A stretch of DNA of 21,790 nt from a virus: positions 1-21,790 of the IMG/VR virus record IMGVR_UViG_3300047462_000728; one strand, 5' to 3'. The translations under genes and the position numbers were made by a program. The number at the start of each line of letters is the position of its first letter. Within the stretch, counting starts at the first letter, position 1. This document shows positions 2,936 through 21,790 of this stretch, one piece after another. The notes beneath the pieces are model-generated. The model did not search any database. It had not been told where the DNA came from and saw only the letters and a program-made list of their open reading frames with translations.

Positions 2936-2964
2936 GGCGGCGCTCCCTTAAAGCTTTTTTTGAA

Positions 2965-3113
2965 CCACAGATGACACCGATGGGCACAGATGAGGGGTAG
3001 GAGCGCCGCCGCCTTACGAGCCTAAAGCGCCGCAGGCATTAATGGCCTTCGGCCGGTGAGCTCCGCCGTCGGAGCCTCCACGAACCATCTGTGCCCATCG
3101 GTGTCATCTGTGG
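2965..3113. repeat. 149-bp hairpin repeat R1
   Basis: A perfect 28-bp inverted repeat at the ends (2965-2992 and 3086-3113; it begins ccacagatgacaccgatg) encloses a core with ggccttcggcc and further short palindromes. It lies 30 nt after the stop of the gp10-like gene and before the ribosome-binding site of the next gene. It is nearly identical to R2 and to R3 in inverted orientation. A long RNA hairpin would form in the minus-strand transcript. Confidence 0.93.
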
Positions 3114-3143
3114 TCAAAAGCCACCTCTCCACCCCAACCCCAC

Positions 3144-7004: not shown

Positions 7005-7014
7005 CGTTTTTGAA

Positions 7015-7164
7015 CCACAGATGACACCGATGGGCACAGATGAGAGGTAGGAGCGCCGCCGCGTCACGAACCTAAAGCGCCGCGGGCATTAATGGCCTTC
7101 GGCACGCTAGCCTCCGCCGCCGGAGCCTCCACGGCCCATCTGTGCCCATCGGTGTCATCTGTGG
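7015..7164. repeat. 150-bp hairpin repeat R2
   Basis: Perfect 28-bp inverted ends (7015-7042 and 7137-7164) are identical to those of R1 and R3; the core is closely related to R1. It lies between two convergent genes, 10 nt after the plus-strand stop and 18 nt after the minus-strand stop at 7183, with T-rich flanks (gtttttgaacc). It is therefore placed where a bidirectional terminator would be expected. Confidence 0.93.
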
Positions 7165-7182
7165 TCAAAAGACCTCTCCGCC

Positions 7183-14566: not shown

Positions 14567-14989
14567 TCAGATGCGAAGGTGGCTGACGACTTGGCCCGCC
14601 GCGTCCTTGATCGCGGCGTTGGCGGCCATATCGACCGGCCCGGCGAGAACGCCGGCGCGGGCCTTGATCTGGGCGTCGACGGCTTTCTCCACGAGGGGGA
14701 GAATAGCGGCCTCCAGGGCCGTCACATCGCCGTTCCAGGCCTGCCCTTGGGCCCCCTTGCGCACCGTGCCGAGGAGGGACGCGAGCGCGCCGGTTCGGGA
14801 CGGATGGGCCGCCACATAGGACCAGACCGCCGAACCGAGGGCGATGAGGCCCCCCACGATGGCCTGCCACTGGCTGGCCGTGGCGAGGCCATGCGCCAGG
14901 GGGATCGCGCCCGCCGCCATGAGCGCCGAGCGGGCGAGGTCCAGCGTCGCGGTCTGGATGGGGGTTGGCGACGGGGGCGTATCTGTCAT
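14567..14989 (-). CDS. Holin-like membrane protein (separately started 3' part of the fused frame)
   Basis: A 140-residue protein from ATG 14989 (MTDTPPSPTPIQTATLDLAR), which has its own GGAG 8 nt upstream. One clear membrane segment is WQAIVGGLIALGSAVWSYVA (about 47-66); the stretch LMAAGAIPLAHGLATASQ before it may be a second hydrophobic helix. This matches the plan of small alphaproteobacterial phage holins (Pam3-gp28-like: hydrophobic helix, G-W/L-I-T region, second helix ending in W-S). A helical Ala/Lys-rich C-terminal domain follows. The same codons also form the C-terminal 140 residues of the endolysin frame, so two products, free holin and endolysin-holin fusion, are possible. Confidence 0.6.
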   Translation of the reverse strand: MTDTPPSPTPIQTATLDLARSALMAAGAIPLAHGLATASQWQAIVGGLIALGSAVWSYVAAHPSRTGALASLLGTVRKGAQGQAWNGDVTALEAAILPLVEKAVDAQIKARAGVLAGPVDMAANAAIKDAAGQVVSHLRI

Positions 14990-15667
14990 TGAAATCTCCG
15001 AACTCTCAAAACCTTCATCCCGCACGCAGCGCGGCGGAGATGCGGGACCTAGGGCCTGCCCCGGACTTGATCCGGGGGGACGGGATGCGGCGGCGGGGTT
15101 CGCGGTTGCGAGGTGCGTACTGATCCCCTGGGTCCCGGCTCGCGCTGCGCTTGGCCGGGATGACGGCGCGGGGGCGGGGAAGGGCCTGCCCTCCGACCTG
15201 TCGGCCGGAGCCTGAAGGGCGAAGGGCGAAGCTTTGGCGAAGGAAGCGCGTGTCCCGTTGCGGATCATGAAGGCCAGGCGCTCGGCCCGGTCGCCGACCT
15301 GTTCGGCCCATTCGCTGAGCAGCATGTGCGCGCTGGCGGTGCGCCAGTCATGGGCCTCAAGGGCCTCCAGCATGTGGTGGAAGCCCCGCAAGCCGCCCAC
15401 GCCGATGTTGAAGGCCATGTTGGCGAGGGCGTCCTGGCGGACATCATCCAGGCCCCGCCACCAGGCGAGCTCCCGGTCCAGCCGCGTCAGAACCGTCTCC
15501 ACATCGGCCTGAAGCTGGATCCGGGCGGCCTCCACCGTCCAGACCGCGCCCTCCACGGCCGGGGTGTGGCCATAGCCGATGGTCCAATTCCCCAGCGTGT
15601 CCCGGTACGCCTTAAGGCACAGCCCCTCGTCGCGCTTGAGATCGTCAATCAAGAGCGGCGTGGTCAT
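14567..15667 (-). CDS. GH24 endolysin, open frame continuing through repeats into holin-like domain
   Basis: The 366-codon frame starts at ATG 15667 (TGATG overlap with the upstream gene). Residues 1 to about 140 are a GH24 (T4-lysozyme-type) muramidase: E14 in KRDEG, D23 in YRDTLG and T29 in WTIGYGHT show the E-x8-D-x5-T spacing of the catalytic triad, and NMAFNIGVGGLRGFHHMLEA is typical of the family. It would cut the peptidoglycan glycan chain; no signal sequence is seen, so it needs the holin. From about residue 142 to 226 the translation is Ala/Pro/Ser-rich and comes from repeat DNA (15015-15246). Residues 227-366 are the holin-like protein. The repeats appear to have removed the normal stop and joined two genes. 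Confidence 0.8.
   Translation of the reverse strand: MTTPLLIDDLKRDEGLCLKAYRDTLGNWTIGYGHTPAVEGAVWTVEAARIQLQADVETVLTRLDRELAWWRGLDDVRQDALANMAFNIGVGGLRGFHHMLEALEAHDWRTASAHMLLSEWAEQVGDRAERLAFMIRNGTRASFAKASPFALQAPADRSEGRPFPAPAPSSRPSAARAGTQGISTHLATANPAAASRPPGSSPGQALGPASPPRCVRDEGFESSEISMTDTPPSPTPIQTATLDLARSALMAAGAIPLAHGLATASQWQAIVGGLIALGSAVWSYVAAHPSRTGALASLLGTVRKGAQGQAWNGDVTALEAAILPLVEKAVDAQIKARAGVLAGPVDMAANAAIKDAAGQVVSHLRI
15015..15163. repeat. REP-like palindromic element inside endolysin frame
   Basis: It starts tcatcccgcacgcagcg and ends gcgcttggccgggatga; the ends pair (TCATCCCG with CGGGATGA). It contains a second hairpin (CCCCGGA, loop cttga, TCCGGGG) and the ccctgggtcccg signature shared with 19405-19470, 19841-19896 and, less exactly, 18577-18682. 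It lies in the coding frame between endolysin and holin with no stop codon. Confidence 0.85.
15183..15246. repeat. Dispersed repeat, family D, copy 2
   Basis: It begins ggcctgccctccgacctgtc and includes gcgaagctttggcgaagg. It aligns by eye with 4674-4736. It sits next to the REP-like element and marks the point where the lysozyme domain ends (about residue 141). Confidence 0.5.
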
Positions 15668-16391: not shown

Positions 16392-16444
16392 GGCGATCCG
16401 CTCCTTTCAGATTTGAGGGATGGGGAAGGGGAAGAAAGGCGTGA

Positions 16445-16593
16445 CCACAGATGACACCGATGGGCACAGATGGTTCGTGGAGGCTCCGACGTCGGAGCTC
16501 ACCGGCCGAAGGCCATCAATGCCTGCGGCGCTTTAGGCTTGTAAGGCGGCGGCGCTCCTACCCCTCATCTGTGCCCATCGGTGTCATCTGTGG
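16445..16593. repeat. 149-bp hairpin repeat R3 (inverted orientation)
   Basis: The 28-bp ends (16445-16472 and 16566-16593) are identical to those of R1 and R2. The core is the reverse complement of the R1 core with a few changes (ggccgaaggcc; ctccgacgtcggag), so it is the same element in the opposite orientation. It begins 13 nt after the coat gene stop codon. Confidence 0.93.
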
Positions 16594-16606
16594 TTTCAAA
16601 AAACCT

Positions 16607-17746
16607 TTACGAGTCAGCCGAGGCTGCGGCGAACATCGTGACCATGCCGTTCTGGACGCCGTTGAAGTTGATCTTCTTGACGCCCAGCAGCTCCTCGATG
16701 GCGACGCCGGGGCGGAAGCCGTAGTCCTTGATCATGTCGGTGCGCGGGGTCGGCTCCTGACCCCAGGCGACGCCGACAGCCCCGCCGCCGCAGAGGAACA
16801 TCGGGCGCACATCGCCGGATGATCCGCCCACGCCGTTGAAGGCCGTCCCGCCATTGGGATTGGAGATATTGCCGCAATAGGTGTCGATCTCGGGGATTTC
16901 CCGGATGATCACCCCATCCCAGAGCAGGTCCCCGTCCTGGAAGATCGGGTTCTTCTCCATCCCCATGCCTTCGCGGGCCCGGGCGTTGGAATTGGCGCCC
17001 ACGATGTTGGTATCCAGCTTCAGATCGCGGAAGGTGCGCGAGCCGCTGAACAGCACATAATATTCCCGCCCGTCCCCGTCCTCGACCCGATAGGGCCGGA
17101 TATGCGGGTCCGCCTGCTTGGCGATGCGCTTGGCCTTGGAGACCATGGCCGCCGAGGCTGTCATGGAGGTGGTGATATTGGCCATGGCCGTGGCGAAGGT
17201 CGCCGAATAGTCGGAGATGTTGGAGCCGAACAGCACCCGGTCGGAATTGGCCGCGTTCCACGCATTCTGCTGCGCCGCCGTGGCCTGATCATAGAAGGCG
17301 ATCGTGCCATTGGCGTCCACCACCACCATGGCCAGGGCCTTGATGATGTCGTCGCGCAGCTTCTCCGATTCCCAGACCATCAGGGCGTCGCGGGCCGCAT
17401 CCCACAGATTGATCTCGGTGCGGAAGGTGGTGGATTTCGGCAGGCGGACGCCGTTCCTGCGCCAGTCAATGGTGATCGGGCAGTTATAGTTGACCAGCTC
17501 CTCTTCCGCCCCATCCAGCACCGTGGCGCCGGTGACGCCAGCGGCCTTCAGACGGGCGATGAAGGGGATGTTGATGGTGCGGAACGCCTCGTCCTCCCGC
17601 TGGAACTTGGTGAGGATGATGCCGCCCTTGTTGATGTCGGCGTTGGACATGTAGGGCATGAACCGCGAGGTGCGGACATACTCCTGGAAGTACTTGGTGA
17701 TCCAAACCTGACGCTCTAGCGCGGTGGAGAGAATGGTCTCGGCCAT
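16607..17746 (-). CDS. Major capsid protein (DUF4043/N4-gp56-like)
   Basis: A 379-residue protein. The N-terminal half includes VLDGAEEELVNYNCPITIDW then RRNGVRLPKSTTFRTEINLW, DAARDALMVWESEKLRDDII, the signature I associate with phage capsid proteins of the DUF4043 type (G-x-EE-x-L..., ID..R..v, AR..L..W). Later segments (YYVLFSGSRTFRDLK; NPIFQDGDLLWDGVIIREIP) match that family too. It would form the icosahedral shell. ATG 17746 has AAGGAG about 8 nt upstream. It lies right after the scaffold-like gene, as in P22. No protease gene is seen in the window, suggesting assembly without a maturation protease encoded nearby. Confidence 0.85.
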   Translation of the reverse strand: MAETILSTALERQVWITKYFQEYVRTSRFMPYMSNADINKGGIILTKFQREDEAFRTINIPFIARLKAAGVTGATVLDGAEEELVNYNCPITIDWRRNGVRLPKSTTFRTEINLWDAARDALMVWESEKLRDDIIKALAMVVVDANGTIAFYDQATAAQQNAWNAANSDRVLFGSNISDYSATFATAMANITTSMTASAAMVSKAKRIAKQADPHIRPYRVEDGDGREYYVLFSGSRTFRDLKLDTNIVGANSNARAREGMGMEKNPIFQDGDLLWDGVIIREIPEIDTYCGNISNPNGGTAFNGVGGSSGDVRPMFLCGGGAVGVAWGQEPTPRTDMIKDYGFRPGVAIEELLGVKKINFNGVQNGMVTMFAAASADS

Positions 17747-17802: not shown

Positions 17803-18489
17803 TTATCGACGAATGGTCTGTGCAAAGGCCGCGCCGGGCCCGAGGGGCGTTTCGGCGACGGCGCCCGCGCCGCCCGCGTTCGGGGCGTTGGCGAGAGAGC
17901 GCGGCGGGGTCGGCGTGGGTTGGAGCGCGGGCGTCCCGCCCGCGTCTTTGGACGCACGCGAGGCCTTCCACGCCTTGTAGTCATCCAGATCGTCCGGGCT
18001 CACCTCGGCGAGCAGCATCTCGCGTTGGCGGGCCTGGCGAATGAACGCGTAGGGATTCTTCGACGCATAGACCTGTTGGTTGAAGTGCGGATCAGATCCA
18101 CACTTCGCCTCCCCCCACTCATGCAGCGCCTTGGCTTCCGCCTCGCCGTGCTGACTGACCATCAGCTCCCGCGAGACATCCATCCGAAGCGCCCACATCT
18201 GTTGGGCGGCGGTCGGCTCAGGCGCCGGGCCCTCTGTCTTCCGCTCGGCCTCGATATCGGCCAGGCGCTTCTCCAGAGCCTTGCGCTTATCCCGCTCGTC
18301 CAAAAGCGCGGCCACGGGAACGTGACCAGGTTCTGGTTGGGTGGGTGGCGGCGGCGTCACTGGGAGGGTGGGCGTCTCGCCCGCCTCTTTTGTCTCCGCC
18401 TCCGCCGGTTGCTCCGTGACCTGAGTTTCCTCTTCGGTCACGCCTTCAGGCTCCCCCTCGATGAGGGCGGCCAAATCGTCCTTATCCAT
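17803..18489 (-). CDS. Scaffolding-like protein with repeat-derived inserts
   Basis: A 228-residue protein. The N-terminus is very acidic (DLAALIEGEPEGVTEEETQV), followed by a Pro-rich linker, a charged helix (LLDERDKRKALEKRLADIEA, about 61-83), a central helical domain (MDVSRELMVSQHGEAEAKAL; NPYAFIRQARQREMLLAEVS) and a Gly/Ala/Pro-rich tail ending FAQTIRR. Acidic N-terminus, long helices and the position between portal and coat fit a scaffold that guides procapsid assembly and then exits. Two near-identical stretches, KEAGETPTL (residues 34-42) and KDAGGTPAL (181-189), are encoded by copies of a small palindrome. ATG 18489 has AGGAAA upstream. Confidence 0.7.
   Translation of the reverse strand: MDKDDLAALIEGEPEGVTEEETQVTEQPAEAETKEAGETPTLPVTPPPPTQPEPGHVPVAALLDERDKRKALEKRLADIEAERKTEGPAPEPTAAQQMWALRMDVSRELMVSQHGEAEAKALHEWGEAKCGSDPHFNQQVYASKNPYAFIRQARQREMLLAEVSPDDLDDYKAWKASRASKDAGGTPALQPTPTPPRSLANAPNAGGAGAVAETPLGPGAAFAQTIRR
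17921..17950. repeat. Short palindromic repeat in scaffold gene, copy 1
   Basis: Palindrome GCGGGCG-TC-CCGCCCGC with flanks tggagc and gtctttg. It encodes KDAGGTPAL in the scaffold frame. It is a host-type dispersed repeat, known in many environmental genomes as the source of 'DAGGTPAL' peptides. Confidence 0.7.
18361..18391. repeat. Short palindromic repeat in scaffold gene, copy 2
   Basis: gtgggcgtctcgcccgcctc is closely related to the copy at 17921-17950, in the same orientation and reading frame. It encodes KEAGETPTL near the N-terminus of the scaffold-like protein. Confidence 0.6.
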
Positions 18490-18576: not shown

Positions 18577-18682
18577 CCGCTCATCCCCGCGAAAGCGGGG
18601 ACCCAGTGTTGTCCAGCGGAGATGCGGGCCCTGGGTCCTGGATCGCGCCTTCGCTTCGCTTCGGCTTGTCCAGGATGAGCGG
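18577..18682. repeat. REP-like palindromic element after doc-like gene
   Basis: The ends ccgctcatcc and ggatgagcgg pair perfectly (10 bp). Inside are ccccgcgaaagcgggg (hairpin) and a gggccctgggtcctgg signature related to the other REP-like copies. It lies 65 nt downstream of the toxin stop. The 18490-18747 gap otherwise holds only GC-rich sequence. Confidence 0.75.
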
Positions 18683-18747
18683 GTTAATGAGGAAACGCCC
18701 GTTAGCCCGAAGGCTGCCCGGCGGCGGCTTTATGGTTGTGCGGTCGC

Positions 18748-19143
18748 CTATCCCTCGCTCAGGGCGCCCCGAAGGCGATCCGCGAAGGTCTCCTGCGAAA
18801 GGCTACCATCGATCACCGCGACCATGTCGTCGGCCCATGCGAGGTCATCGCCGATACCCAGACGATACCCGTTGTCTTCAATGAAGATGCGCATGGCCGC
18901 GAAGCCCGTACGCTTGTTCCCCTGAAGAAACGGATGATTGGCGCAGATCGCGAACAGCAAAACCGTGGCCAGGGTGGCGATATCCTCGACCCCGTCATAA
19001 GCCCAGTGGCTGTAGGGGCGCGCGCAGGCGCTTTCCAACAGCTCGGGCCGGATCAGGCTGTGGGGCTCGCTCGTCCCCTCCAGAAGCGCCCGATTCAGCT
19101 CAACGACGATGTCCGGATCGAGCCAGTGAGGCTCACTCTGCAA
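18748..19143 (-). CDS. Fic/Doc-family death-on-curing toxin
   Basis: A 131-residue protein. The Fic/Doc motif HPFLQGNKRTG is at residues 70-80, within FAICANHPFLQGNKRTGFAA, and the N-terminus EPHWLDPDIVVELNRALL is typical of Doc proteins. Doc of phage P1 phosphorylates EF-Tu and stops translation. The classical motif is HxFx(D/N)(A/G)NKR; here Gln74 replaces the acidic or Asn residue, which could affect metal binding, though Gln variants exist. The frame starts at TTG 19143 without a ribosome-binding site and overlaps the upstream antitoxin-like gene by 11 nt, so it depends on coupled translation. It lies between portal and scaffold, same strand. Confidence 0.8.
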   Translation of the reverse strand: MQSEPHWLDPDIVVELNRALLEGTSEPHSLIRPELLESACARPYSHWAYDGVEDIATLATVLLFAICANHPFLQGNKRTGFAAMRIFIEDNGYRLGIGDDLAWADDMVAVIDGSLSQETFADRLRGALSEG

Positions 19144-19291
19144 GGCGCGCCAAAATCTTCGGGTAGGTCTTTTTCAGGTCCGCGACCCGCGCCTTGTAGT
19201 CCGTATCCCGCTTGGCGACAGGGCGCGCCTTTAGGACCGGTTTTGCGACCGTCGCCTGCGTTTTGGACCCTGCGTCATCGGGGGGAGACAT
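19133..19291 (-). CDS. Probable antitoxin of the Doc-like toxin
   Basis: A 52-residue protein, MSPPDDAGSKTQATVAKPVL followed by KARPVAKRDTDYKARVADLK and KTYPKILARLAE. ATG 19291 has GGAGG 6 nt upstream, a strong site compared with the toxin's TTG. The basic N-terminal half and the amphipathic C-terminal helix fit an antitoxin with a DNA-binding or disordered part and a toxin-binding helix. It is not recognisable as Phd by sequence. The order antitoxin-toxin with an 11-nt overlap is standard for phd-doc. The 113 bp between it and the REP-like copy at 19405 shows nothing clear, but should hold its promoter. Confidence 0.6.
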   Translation of the reverse strand: MSPPDDAGSKTQATVAKPVLKARPVAKRDTDYKARVADLKKTYPKILARLAE

Positions 19292-19404
19292 ATTGAACCT
19301 CCATCGGCACGGAATAGCGTCCCAATGACCTCAATATCGCGCCGAAGACTGCCGATTACAATTCGACTTCACGCCAGCGCCGGCGACGGGGTCGATTCCG
19401 AAAC

Positions 19405-19470
19405 ATCGCGTCCAGTCCCCTGGGTCCCGCATCTTCCCCTCGCTTTCGCGAGGGTCCGTGCGGGATGACG
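19405..19470. repeat. REP-like terminal repeat, left copy
   Basis: Contains the outer 32-bp arm, a central hairpin (cctcgctttcgcgagg, 19438-19453) and gtgcgggatgacgg. It is the inverted partner of 19841-19896, 12 nt longer because of the central hairpin. It lies 17 nt upstream of the GIY-YIG start. Confidence 0.85.
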
Positions 19471-19487
19471 GTTAAGGTTGGGGGGCT

Positions 19488-19817
19488 ATGGAGAAGGGTG
19501 GCTGCGTTTACATCCTGGCCAGCCGGCGAAACGGAACGCTCTATACCGGCGTGACGAGCGACCTCTTACGGCGCGTTTCTGAACACCGCCTGGGGCTCAC
19601 CCCTGGCTTCGCCACCCGTTATGGCGTCAAATATCTGGTCTGGTTCGAAGACCACGGCGACATCGAAGCCGCGATCACCCGCGAGAAGGTCATCAAACGC
19701 TGGCGCCGCGCCTGGAAGATCGCCCTCATCGAAGCCGCCAACCCCCAATGGCTCGACCTCTGGGACTCAATCAACGCGGTTCCCGAAGGCCCTCTTAGCT
19801 ATCTCCAACGCCCCTGA
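19488..19817 (+). CDS. Small GIY-YIG (URI-type) endonuclease
   Basis: A 109-residue protein. The GIY-YIG motif is read in GCVYILASRRNGTLYTGVTS (VYI ... YTGVT), followed by the conserved Arg in LLRRVSEH and the metal-binding Glu in AAITREKVIKRWRRAWK. The family nicks or cuts DNA through a Tyr/Glu active site; stand-alone ~100-residue members (YhbQ/UPF0213 type) are frequent in alphaproteobacteria, often in several copies. It reads opposite to all neighbours and is enclosed by inverted REP-like repeats, suggesting the nuclease acts on these ends. ATG 19488 is the start; upstream ggttgggggg is a weak ribosome-binding site. Function beyond nuclease fold is inferred. Confidence 0.85.
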   Translation: MEKGGCVYILASRRNGTLYTGVTSDLLRRVSEHRLGLTPGFATRYGVKYLVWFEDHGDIEAAITREKVIKRWRRAWKIALIEAANPQWLDLWDSINAVPEGPLSYLQRP

Positions 19818-19840
19818 ACCCCGGCACAAGCTCCCACCTC

Positions 19841-19896
19841 CCGTCATCCCGCACGAAGCGCAGCGAAGATGCGGGACCCAGGGGACTGGACGCGAT
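19841..19896. repeat. REP-like terminal repeat, right copy
   Basis: Reads ccgtcatcccgcacgaagcg ... ggggactggacgcgat. It is the inverse of the left copy, 24 nt after the GIY-YIG stop and 10 nt from the portal stop. Confidence 0.85.
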
Positions 19897-19906
19897 CTTG
19901 GCGGCT

Positions 19907-21790
19907 TTACTGGACCTCCTGCTGCGCAGCGACTCCCGCGGCCATCTGCGCTTGCGTCATCGCCTGAGCCTGATCGCTTTGGGCCTGGTTCTGCCCCGCC
20001 TCAAACCCCGCCGCCGCGTGCTCCGCATGAACCGCGTGGGCCTCACTCAGCGCATTCAGCATCCGCGCCGTGCCCTCCGCCTCGTTCCGCGCGGTCTCTG
20101 ATTTCGTCTTGTCGATTTGCGCCACGGCGTGAGCCGCCCCGATCTGTTGTTGCTGCGCCTGGGCCTGCTGCTGCGCCTGGCTCGCCTGGTCCACCGCGTC
20201 GATGACGCTGCGTTTGTGCGGGATCGGCGAGAGCAGGATGAGCTGCTTCAGGCTGATCTGCTGTTGATAGACCGGGCTCATCTTCACCAGGTCGAGGATC
20301 TCGCTGAAGGCCTCGGCCTGGAGGTTGCCCACATCCTGCTGGGTGTCGATCTCGATATCCACGTCCATCTCGGCGAGGGGGTTTGAATAGCCCAGAACCT
20401 CGGCCGTGGATGGATGGACTTGCGGCTGGTTCAGCCCCACGAAGCGGGGCGCGTTCTCGTCGTCCGTCACCCGGATGAACTGGGGCGCGCGCCAGAACTG
20501 TTTGGCCCTCCCCCAGCACTGGCGATAGACGCGCAGCTCGAAGTCCTCCAGGGCGCCGTAGAGATTGGCGAGCTCCGTCAGCCCCGATTGCTGGCGGGCG
20601 AGCAGGGCGCGTCCCGACGCGTCCTCACTGGACCGCCCGAGCACCGCGGGGCTTGGCCCCATGCGCTCCAGCTCGGCCTTGGCCTCGGCCATCATCTCCA
20701 GATTGCCCTGGAACTCCGCCGTGTTGGGCGAAATCCCCCAGCCATAGGGCAGAACCCCATCGGGCCTAGCCGCCTCGCGCCGGGCTTCCTCCGCATCCAC
20801 ATTGATGGCGCTCGGGTCCTTGGCCTCGATGCGGCTGACGCTGAGCAGATGCAGGCTCTTGGACCGGCGCTTGTTCACCTCATCCTGCGGGCCGATCATA
20901 TCCCACACCGCGCCGTAGCGACCGTTGTCGCGGCGCACATAGGCGCTCTGGGCCTCGATGGGGCAGTCCGGCCGGCCTTTGTGATCCTGATAGGGGCTGG
21001 GGCCATGCTCCAGCACGTCGGAGCCGGTGAAGACCGAGCGGCTCCAGCTTTGGGCGTCGCGCCAATACATCTCCACCACCAGCAGACGCCGCAGCTTCGG
21101 GTCCACCCAGGCCCCGCCCGTTCCCGGGCCCACCAGCGGGCGATCCTGGAAGCTCTCGTCAGGAACCATCATCCCCGCCCCGCCCGAGGCCTGGACGCTG
21201 GTCTCGATGGCGGCGGACTTGTCCGGATACAGCGCCGCCAAGTCGTCGACATACATCCACTTGGCGATGCCCATATAGCGGGCGTCCTTGAAGTCCGGCC
21301 GGCGGGAGCGGGGATCGTAGAAGAACTCCTCCCACCGGATCTGCGTAATGGTCACCTGGCTATCCGCATCCGCCCCGATCAGGGCCGCGCCAGTGCCGGG
21401 CACCAGGATATCGCGGAACACCTCCAGCTTGACCCGCTTGAAGCGGTTGAAGTCGGCGATATAGCGCAGCACATCCGTGGCCGCGTCGGCGCTGTCCTCA
21501 TCTCCCGGGTTGCGCGGCCAGCATTTGGGGTCGGATGTCCCCTTCTCACTGACCCCGATGATTCCGTTGATCGCCGGCTTGATGCGGTTGACCACGATGG
21601 GCGGTTGTCCCCGCTCCCGCAGCTTCGCCAGCTCCTCGCGCGTGAACTGATCGGAGTCGTAATAGTCCAGGGCCACAAGGCTGTTGCGGCGGGCGGAATA
21701 GGTGAGCTGCTCGTGCTCGGTGAAGTAGCGCTTGAGGCGCGCGAGGTCGGCGGTGGGGGCCGCCGCCCCCTTGCTCGCGGATCGCGCCAT
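19907..21790 (-). CDS. P22-type portal protein
   Basis: A 627-residue protein, complete with its ATG at the last three bases of the window; P22 gp1 has 725. Portal family features are FTEHEQLTYSARRNSLVALD near the start, PPIVVNRIKPAINGIIGVSE (about 63-82), GTGAALIGADAD, EEFFYDPRSRRPDFKDARYM and a middle section with DMIGPQDEVNKRRSKSLHLL. The C-terminus (about 530-627) is Gln/Ala-rich and helical (QASQAQQQAQAQQQQIG), like the P22 portal barrel. Twelve copies should form the DNA entry ring that the terminase docks to. The terminase genes are expected beyond the right edge. A palindromic element starts 10 nt after its stop. Confidence 0.9.
   Translation of the reverse strand: MARSASKGAAAPTADLARLKRYFTEHEQLTYSARRNSLVALDYYDSDQFTREELAKLRERGQPPIVVNRIKPAINGIIGVSEKGTSDPKCWPRNPGDEDSADAATDVLRYIADFNRFKRVKLEVFRDILVPGTGAALIGADADSQVTITQIRWEEFFYDPRSRRPDFKDARYMGIAKWMYVDDLAALYPDKSAAIETSVQASGGAGMMVPDESFQDRPLVGPGTGGAWVDPKLRRLLVVEMYWRDAQSWSRSVFTGSDVLEHGPSPYQDHKGRPDCPIEAQSAYVRRDNGRYGAVWDMIGPQDEVNKRRSKSLHLLSVSRIEAKDPSAINVDAEEARREAARPDGVLPYGWGISPNTAEFQGNLEMMAEAKAELERMGPSPAVLGRSSEDASGRALLARQQSGLTELANLYGALEDFELRVYRQCWGRAKQFWRAPQFIRVTDDENAPRFVGLNQPQVHPSTAEVLGYSNPLAEMDVDIEIDTQQDVGNLQAEAFSEILDLVKMSPVYQQQISLKQLILLSPIPHKRSVIDAVDQASQAQQQAQAQQQQIGAAHAVAQIDKTKSETARNEAEGTARMLNALSEAHAVHAEHAAAGFEAGQNQAQSDQAQAMTQAQMAAGVAAQQEVQ

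Follow-up and report, generated by a model that had tools for sequence, protein, structure and literature searches.

Does a small nuclease gene that lies between two inverted palindromic repeats in a phage genome form a mobile element together with these repeats, and could such an enzyme be the one that spreads them? The question arises from an IMG/VR virus record, a contig of 21,790 bp that we analyzed as a whole and call the window. Di Nocera et al. (2013) defined the GTAG and the CGTC superfamilies of REPs and tied the GTAG REPs to the RAYT transposases (PMC3733652). According to these authors, no dedicated transposase seems to belong to the CGTC elements; they checked genes for tyrosine and other transposases, do not mention GIY-YIG proteins, and left the mobilizer open with the suggestions that it is extinct or that its work is spread over many transposases (PMC3733652). 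In the open-access literature that we searched, we found no link between GIY-YIG proteins and REPs; most subscription papers and all preprints outside PubMed Central were beyond our reach.

The unit in the phage and its nuclease

Positions 19405–19436 and 19865–19896 of the window are exact inverted copies of each other over 32 nt, the longest exact stretch. Elsewhere in the contig, windows with the same spacing match exactly over 11 nt at best, and a chance inverted repeat is thereby ruled out. At 91% identity the repeat reaches 44 nt (19402–19445 and 19856–19899), and a further inner inverted match pairs 19445–19471 with 19841–19867. The arms enclose a single open reading frame, which matches the GIY-YIG family PF01541 with an E value of 6.6e-13. 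The features that we refer to below are the following.

15012–15162, no strand: gene-less REP pair (REPIN), CGTC tags outward, candidate non-autonomous relative
16607–17746: major head protein gene
17803–18489: scaffold-like gene, named from its position only
18577–18686, no strand: inverted pair of REPs, without a gene and with tags of a variant type (CTCATCCCC)
19402–19471, minus strand: left REP of the unit, CGTC tag gene-proximal, its outer 32 nt (19405–19436) exactly inverted at the right end
19488–19817, plus strand: GIY-YIG nuclease gene, 109 aa, PF01541
19841–19899, plus strand: right REP of the unit, CGTC tag gene-proximal, its outer 32 nt being 19865–19896
19907–21790, minus strand: P22_portal gene, P22-like portal

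The nuclease gene is placed between the portal and the scaffold-like genes on the strand opposite to the portal, whose stop codon is only about 8–10 bp away from the outer repeat end of the unit. With its hairpin, CGTC tag, and CCA tail, each arm is a CGTC-type REP. The stem of 8 bp contains one mismatch, while the loops are much longer than the 4–5 nt published for CGTC REPs with their stems of 8–9 bp (PMC3733652). The tags of the phage unit face the gene, whereas the commonest bacterial form has them outward. Several claims of the initial annotation consequently held: a GIY-YIG gene boxed by 32-bp perfect inverted repeats at 19405–19896, its orientation against the phage operon, the unit abutting the portal stop, and the REP-like character of the repeats, to which only the longer loop has to be added. 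Repeat-only relatives had also been proposed near 15015–15163 and 18577–18682, and we map both, the first with slightly shifted ends and the second ending at 18686.

The REPIN at 15012–15162 is present in the related contigs L082, L083, and L085 and absent in L171 and L094. It lies inside a single open frame of 366 aa (window 14567–15667). By our own reading, a lysozyme-like frame and a downstream frame appear to be fused there; the relatives L171 and L094 are free of the REPIN.

Two side observations concern the same region and its surroundings. A Fic/Doc-like gene (18748–19143, minus strand) and a small upstream ORF occupy the space between the unit and the scaffold-like gene (window 18748–19290). 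The gene is missing at that place in L082–L084, and in L085 a piece matching window 19135–19253 sits on the other side of its unit. A separate palindromic repeat of about 100–160 bp, of the CACAGATGACACCGATGGGCACAGATG type, is found at 1258–1356, 2956–3118, 7007–7169, and 16444–16594 and also in related phages.

The protein itself is a member of the GIY-YIG superfamily, as shown by the PF01541 match, the conserved residues, and the fold. The residues Y8, Y19, R29, H33, E66, and N85 are of catalytic type, correspond to those of the GIY-YIG active site, and do not vary among 55 homologues. The AlphaFold model (pLDDT 89.5) is matched first by the UPF0213 structure 1zg2 and then by Slx1; the UvrC domain was matched as well, and WD-40 matches in the PDB profile search were taken as spurious. 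UPF0213 proteins (1zg2, 1ywl) are the closest solved relatives by profile and fold, but these solved members are annotated as hypothetical. Slx1 acts on branched DNA according to the title of entry 6sei, yet it is a repair enzyme that acts together with Slx4 and lacks repeat ends. The GIY-YIG subfamily of the unit has no known activity. We rejected an identity as RAYT or TnpA-REP, given that PF01541 is the sole domain found, that an IS200/IS605-type tyrosine (HUH) transposase domain is missing, and that the flanking REPs carry CGTC instead of GTAG tags. A known anti-phage defence system was likewise rejected, since no PADLOC model matched.

Four related contigs (L082–L085) have the GIY-YIG gene beside the same scaffold-like gene, L094 retains a truncated remnant, and close relatives such as L171 are without it. 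In these phages the scaffold-side flank is kept while the portal-side flank varies, and the breakpoint is the outer end of the repeat. The dN/dS values among the phage copies are 0.02–0.10 (one pair without an amino-acid change was left out), showing that the protein has been kept functional by purifying selection. Because five phage relatives have the unit at a single inherited position, recent movement within these phages is not shown. We searched for an exact empty site with L171, L105, L094, and others and obtained none, the gap between portal and scaffold genes being too rearranged. Annotated phage records contained no homologue.

Association with CGTC REPs across bacterial phyla

We compared 96 homologous loci, namely 80 from bacterial genomes, 15 from virus contigs, and the window locus; the 80 bacterial loci are the best matches of the search and no random sample. 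Among the hosts are Alpha-, Beta-, and Gammaproteobacteria, Zixibacteria, Planctomycetota, Nitrospirota, and Cyanobacteria. At 77 of the 96 loci the flanking inverted repeats score higher than the 99th percentile of 514 shifted controls; several loci, for example L065 and L027, have no recognizable repeats. Using a strict CGTC-REP finder, we counted 207 REPs less than 300 bp from the gene (3.61/kb) versus 30 REPs in 435 kb beyond 600 bp (0.069/kb), a near/far ratio of 52. REPs on both sides within 150 bp bracket 50 of 80 GIY genes but only 3 of 404 other ORFs of the same loci. For a second sample we took 40 Sphingomonadaceae genomes with one locus each; flanking repeats are present at 33 of these loci, versus 1 of 79 controls at that score. 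The association across phyla is thus shown.

The REPs of the window and of the loci fulfil the definition of the CGTC superfamily, with an unpaired CGTC tag at one end and a CCA tail, and the published form with a stem of 8–9 bp and a loop of 4–5 nt is seen in many loci (e.g., CGTCATTCCCGCGAAGGCGGGAATCCA). Their tag orientation varies, being outward in 29 cases, inward in 21, and the same way in 11. The first REP pattern that we used matched nowhere in 20 of the 40 genomes of the Sphingomonadaceae sample; many nuclease genes of those 20 carry other stems (e.g., CGTCATGCTGAACTTGTTTCAGCATCCA), mostly in a CGTCA...TCCA frame.

Elements are located at many unrelated sites, also on plasmids and phages, and a genome can hold up to 8–9 copies of the nuclease gene, so that multicopy occurrence is shown as well. 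In the Sphingomonadaceae the presence is patchy (129 of 200 genomes), and GIY copy number follows REP count with a Spearman coefficient of 0.43 over 200 genomes, not corrected for phylogeny. Ten Sphingomonadaceae genomes have at least 10 REPs without a full-length GIY gene, and seven show no match at all. Such REP-rich genomes without any match are exemplified by G148 (105 REPs) and G077 (90); relics of the gene occur in some of those without a full-length copy, such as G023. The Rhizobium plasmids L293 and L294 gave neither a repeat pair nor a useful polymorphism. As a side observation, a relative of the nuclease lies inside a dense array of CGTC-type REPs in L291, a Neisseria gonorrhoeae record of chromosome size that was deposited as a plasmid.

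The ends are matched to the lineage of the nuclease. Left and right REPs of one locus have a mean identity of 0.92 versus 0.66 between loci, a level not reached in any of 5000 permutations. Protein similarity predicts REP similarity with a Mantel rho of 0.39 (permutation maximum 0.13), and the relation also appears when only paralogues of the same genome are paired (17 pairs, rho 0.71, p 0.0016). In Leptolyngbya sp. PCC 6406 the REP pattern has five matches in 5.8 Mb, all of them at the GIY locus. The sole match in Nitrosomonas UBA6494 and both of the two matches in the Sphingomonadaceae genome G026 are at a GIY gene too. Genomes of this kind fit a joint transfer of the gene with its ends.

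We also observed that a second and more distant GIY-YIG subfamily lies between inverted copies of another common palindrome, CCGTTCGTCCTGAGC..TGTCGAAGGAC. At these loci (L195, L202, L203, and L311–L339, e.g., L202:1350–1900) the bracketing reaches the score threshold in 20 of 28 Sphingomonadaceae cases versus 1 of 112 controls.

Gene-less forms, boundaries, and occupied sites

The relation between units and gene-less repeats is most direct in Pseudoxanthomonas helianthi, whose genome contains about 105 REPs besides four GIY genes. Among adjacent tag-outward REP pairs in this genome, 32 have a gap below 100 bp and are gene-less REPINs, none has a gap of 100–200 bp, and three with gaps of 336–356 bp each hold a GIY gene. 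When S. caseinilyticus is included, all four tag-outward pairs with gaps of 200–700 bp hold a GIY gene and no other gene. This count took in tag-outward pairs only and left out two tags-inward pairs, one in P. helianthi with a 473-bp gap (C1:440361–440860) and one in S. caseinilyticus with a 603-bp gap. The P. helianthi REPINs and the matching GIY units have the REP plus about 6–10 adjacent nucleotides in common, with the subterminal bases GCGACTT (L189), TGGACGTT (L179), and CCCAGC (L198). One further REPIN type of this genome (G003), with the ends ATCCATTTTGC (e.g., L348, L352, L355), has no partner among the four GIY units.

Precise boundaries in paralogous copies, as expected of a transposable element, are shown by Rhizobium sp. 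C1. The alignment of its units L186 and L190 runs from outer CGTC tag to outer CGTC tag, and no similarity is left outside them. Orthologous sites that are occupied in some genomes and empty in others are shown as well. A unit between two genes, identified as pilB and pilC by their translated flanks, was found in P. helianthi and in seven congeners that we examined. G222, where these genes are 3 bp apart, and G238 lack the unit. Two further Pseudoxanthomonas sites are occupied in some species and empty in others. On the Sphingobium plasmids L299–L304, the fnrL-side intergene exists in at least three states: with a GIY unit, with a solo REP palindrome, or with no such REP. The solo form, a perfect palindrome made of two REP outer parts, was seen in two isolates, and two others have no such REP; it could stem from a deletion between the ACCCCGGG direct repeats or could represent the pre-insertion site, both of which are possible. 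A base-exact empty site was not found among the orthologous sites compared, and we saw no target-site duplication in the examined Rhizobium units, Sphingobium sites, and P. helianthi REPINs and units.

For the initial annotation, this means that the proposed layout of an autonomous element with non-autonomous offspring is supported, directly so in P. helianthi, where REPINs match GIY units. Its larger claim, that a GIY-YIG protein mobilizes REP-like palindromes as a new system, is supported by sequence evidence, with the enzymatic mobilization itself being inferred. Two outcomes had been named that would refute it, homologues usually lacking the repeats and repeats lying equally around unrelated genes. 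Neither was met, given the repeats at 77/96 and 33/40 loci and the bracketing of only 3/404 other ORFs. The comparison with empty sites that it had asked for gave none that is exact in phages and sites that are not base-exact in Pseudoxanthomonas and Sphingobium.

A probable minimal mobile element and its rivals

The likely reading is that the unit is an autonomous GIY-YIG element that mobilizes CGTC REPs; catalysis, target rule, and transposition are inferred. It would be a minimal mobile element, a single-domain GIY-YIG gene between two inverted CGTC-type REPs that serve as its cognate ends. Because the fold is nearest to the UPF0213 proteins and then to Slx1, a structure-specific nuclease, we infer that the enzyme most likely recognizes the REP as a hairpin or cruciform. 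It may then cut at or near the CGTC tag, and host replication or repair would complete the move. REPINs with the same ends would be non-autonomous derivatives, moved in trans. Hairpin recognition, strand cleavage, the mobilization of REPINs in trans, and the strand chemistry are inferred and not shown. Against this reading weigh the lack of a target-site duplication and of a base-exact empty site in our comparisons, the ten REP-rich Sphingomonadaceae genomes without a full-length GIY gene, the varying tag orientation, and the loci without recognizable repeats. One of the closest known systems is that of the RAYT or TnpA-REP proteins with their GTAG REPs and REPINs (PMC2817692, PMC3116915, PMC3733652), which likewise combines a small nuclease gene flanked by inverted palindromic REPs, dispersed gene-less dimers, and a cognate matching of enzyme and REP. 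RAYTs, however, are IS200/IS605-type tyrosine transposases with GTAG REPs, whereas the unit described here has a GIY-YIG enzyme and CGTC REPs. With the published CGTC superfamily (PMC3733652) the ends have in common the CGTC or TGTC tag, the hairpin, the CCA tail, and the inverted dimers; no transposase gene was reported there, while here the repeats bracket a specific nuclease family, in the phage with a longer loop.

The rival that survives best, although we regard it as unlikely, is a homing-type parasite. The REPs would then have come first and owe their spread to another agent, with repeated insertions of the GIY gene between the REPs of a REPIN. GIY-YIG homing endonucleases do exist; their free-standing genes are selfish and occur in phages and bacteria, which makes them similar to the unit. 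The position of the gene between two complete REPs speaks for this rival, as does the Sphingobium fnrL site with a solo palindrome in two isolates where others have the unit. A deletion between the two ends, at their ACCCCGGG direct repeats, explains the solo REP equally well, however. In addition, the REP sequence tracks the nuclease lineage even among paralogues of one genome, and the Leptolyngbya REPs are found only at the gene, so that the ends travelled with it. Free-standing homing genes also differ in that they convert alleles at fixed sites and have no inverted REP ends with dispersed gene-less copies.

Two other rivals are very unlikely. A resident housekeeping or regulatory enzyme could process REP cruciforms or be autoregulated by the flanking REPs, neither of them being mobile. 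Strong purifying selection and the Slx1-like fold are compatible with this, and the TnpA-REP of RAYTs has indeed been termed a domesticated transposase (PMC8266576). Against it stand the up to 8–9 copies per genome, the patchy presence (129/200 Sphingomonadaceae), the location on plasmids and phages, and the occupied and empty orthologous sites. In a composite cassette, homologous recombination between REPs would move any gene in between, with GIY-YIG as a common passenger. This agrees with the different genes that adjoin the unit in related phages and with their breakpoints at the REP end, but in P. helianthi and S. caseinilyticus all four wide tag-outward pairs hold a GIY gene and none another gene, and two GIY-YIG subfamilies occur with two different palindromes. 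That the REPs are nothing more than intergenic hairpins of the terminator kind, located by chance next to a small gene of horizontal origin, is all but excluded. REP-rich genomes do commonly have REPs in their intergenic regions (PMC3733652), but the controls (3/404 other ORFs versus 50/80 GIY genes bracketed), the left–right matching of the REPs, and the genomes with REPs found only at the gene contradict this rival.

CGTC REPs are among the most widespread short bacterial repeats, and this nuclease is so far the strongest candidate for the missing enzyme behind their spread. With one small protein and one hairpin, the question of the mobilizer can be tested directly. If our reading is true, the nuclease would be minimal in size (about 95 aa; range 95–109 aa) with predictable cognate DNA hairpins, a GIY-YIG-based mobility class would be added to bacterial transposition, and the origin and persistence of REPINs would be explained. 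Going further, we lean toward a bolder reading, in which bacterial palindromic repeats would have a second class of mobilizing enzymes, independent of HUH and formed by small GIY-YIG nucleases, one subfamily moving CGTC REPs and another the CCGTTCGTCCTGAGC..TGTCGAAGGAC repeats. In that case, a large part of the palindromic repeats interspersed in genomes of Proteobacteria and other phyla would derive from GIY-YIG elements, which are also borne by phages and plasmids.
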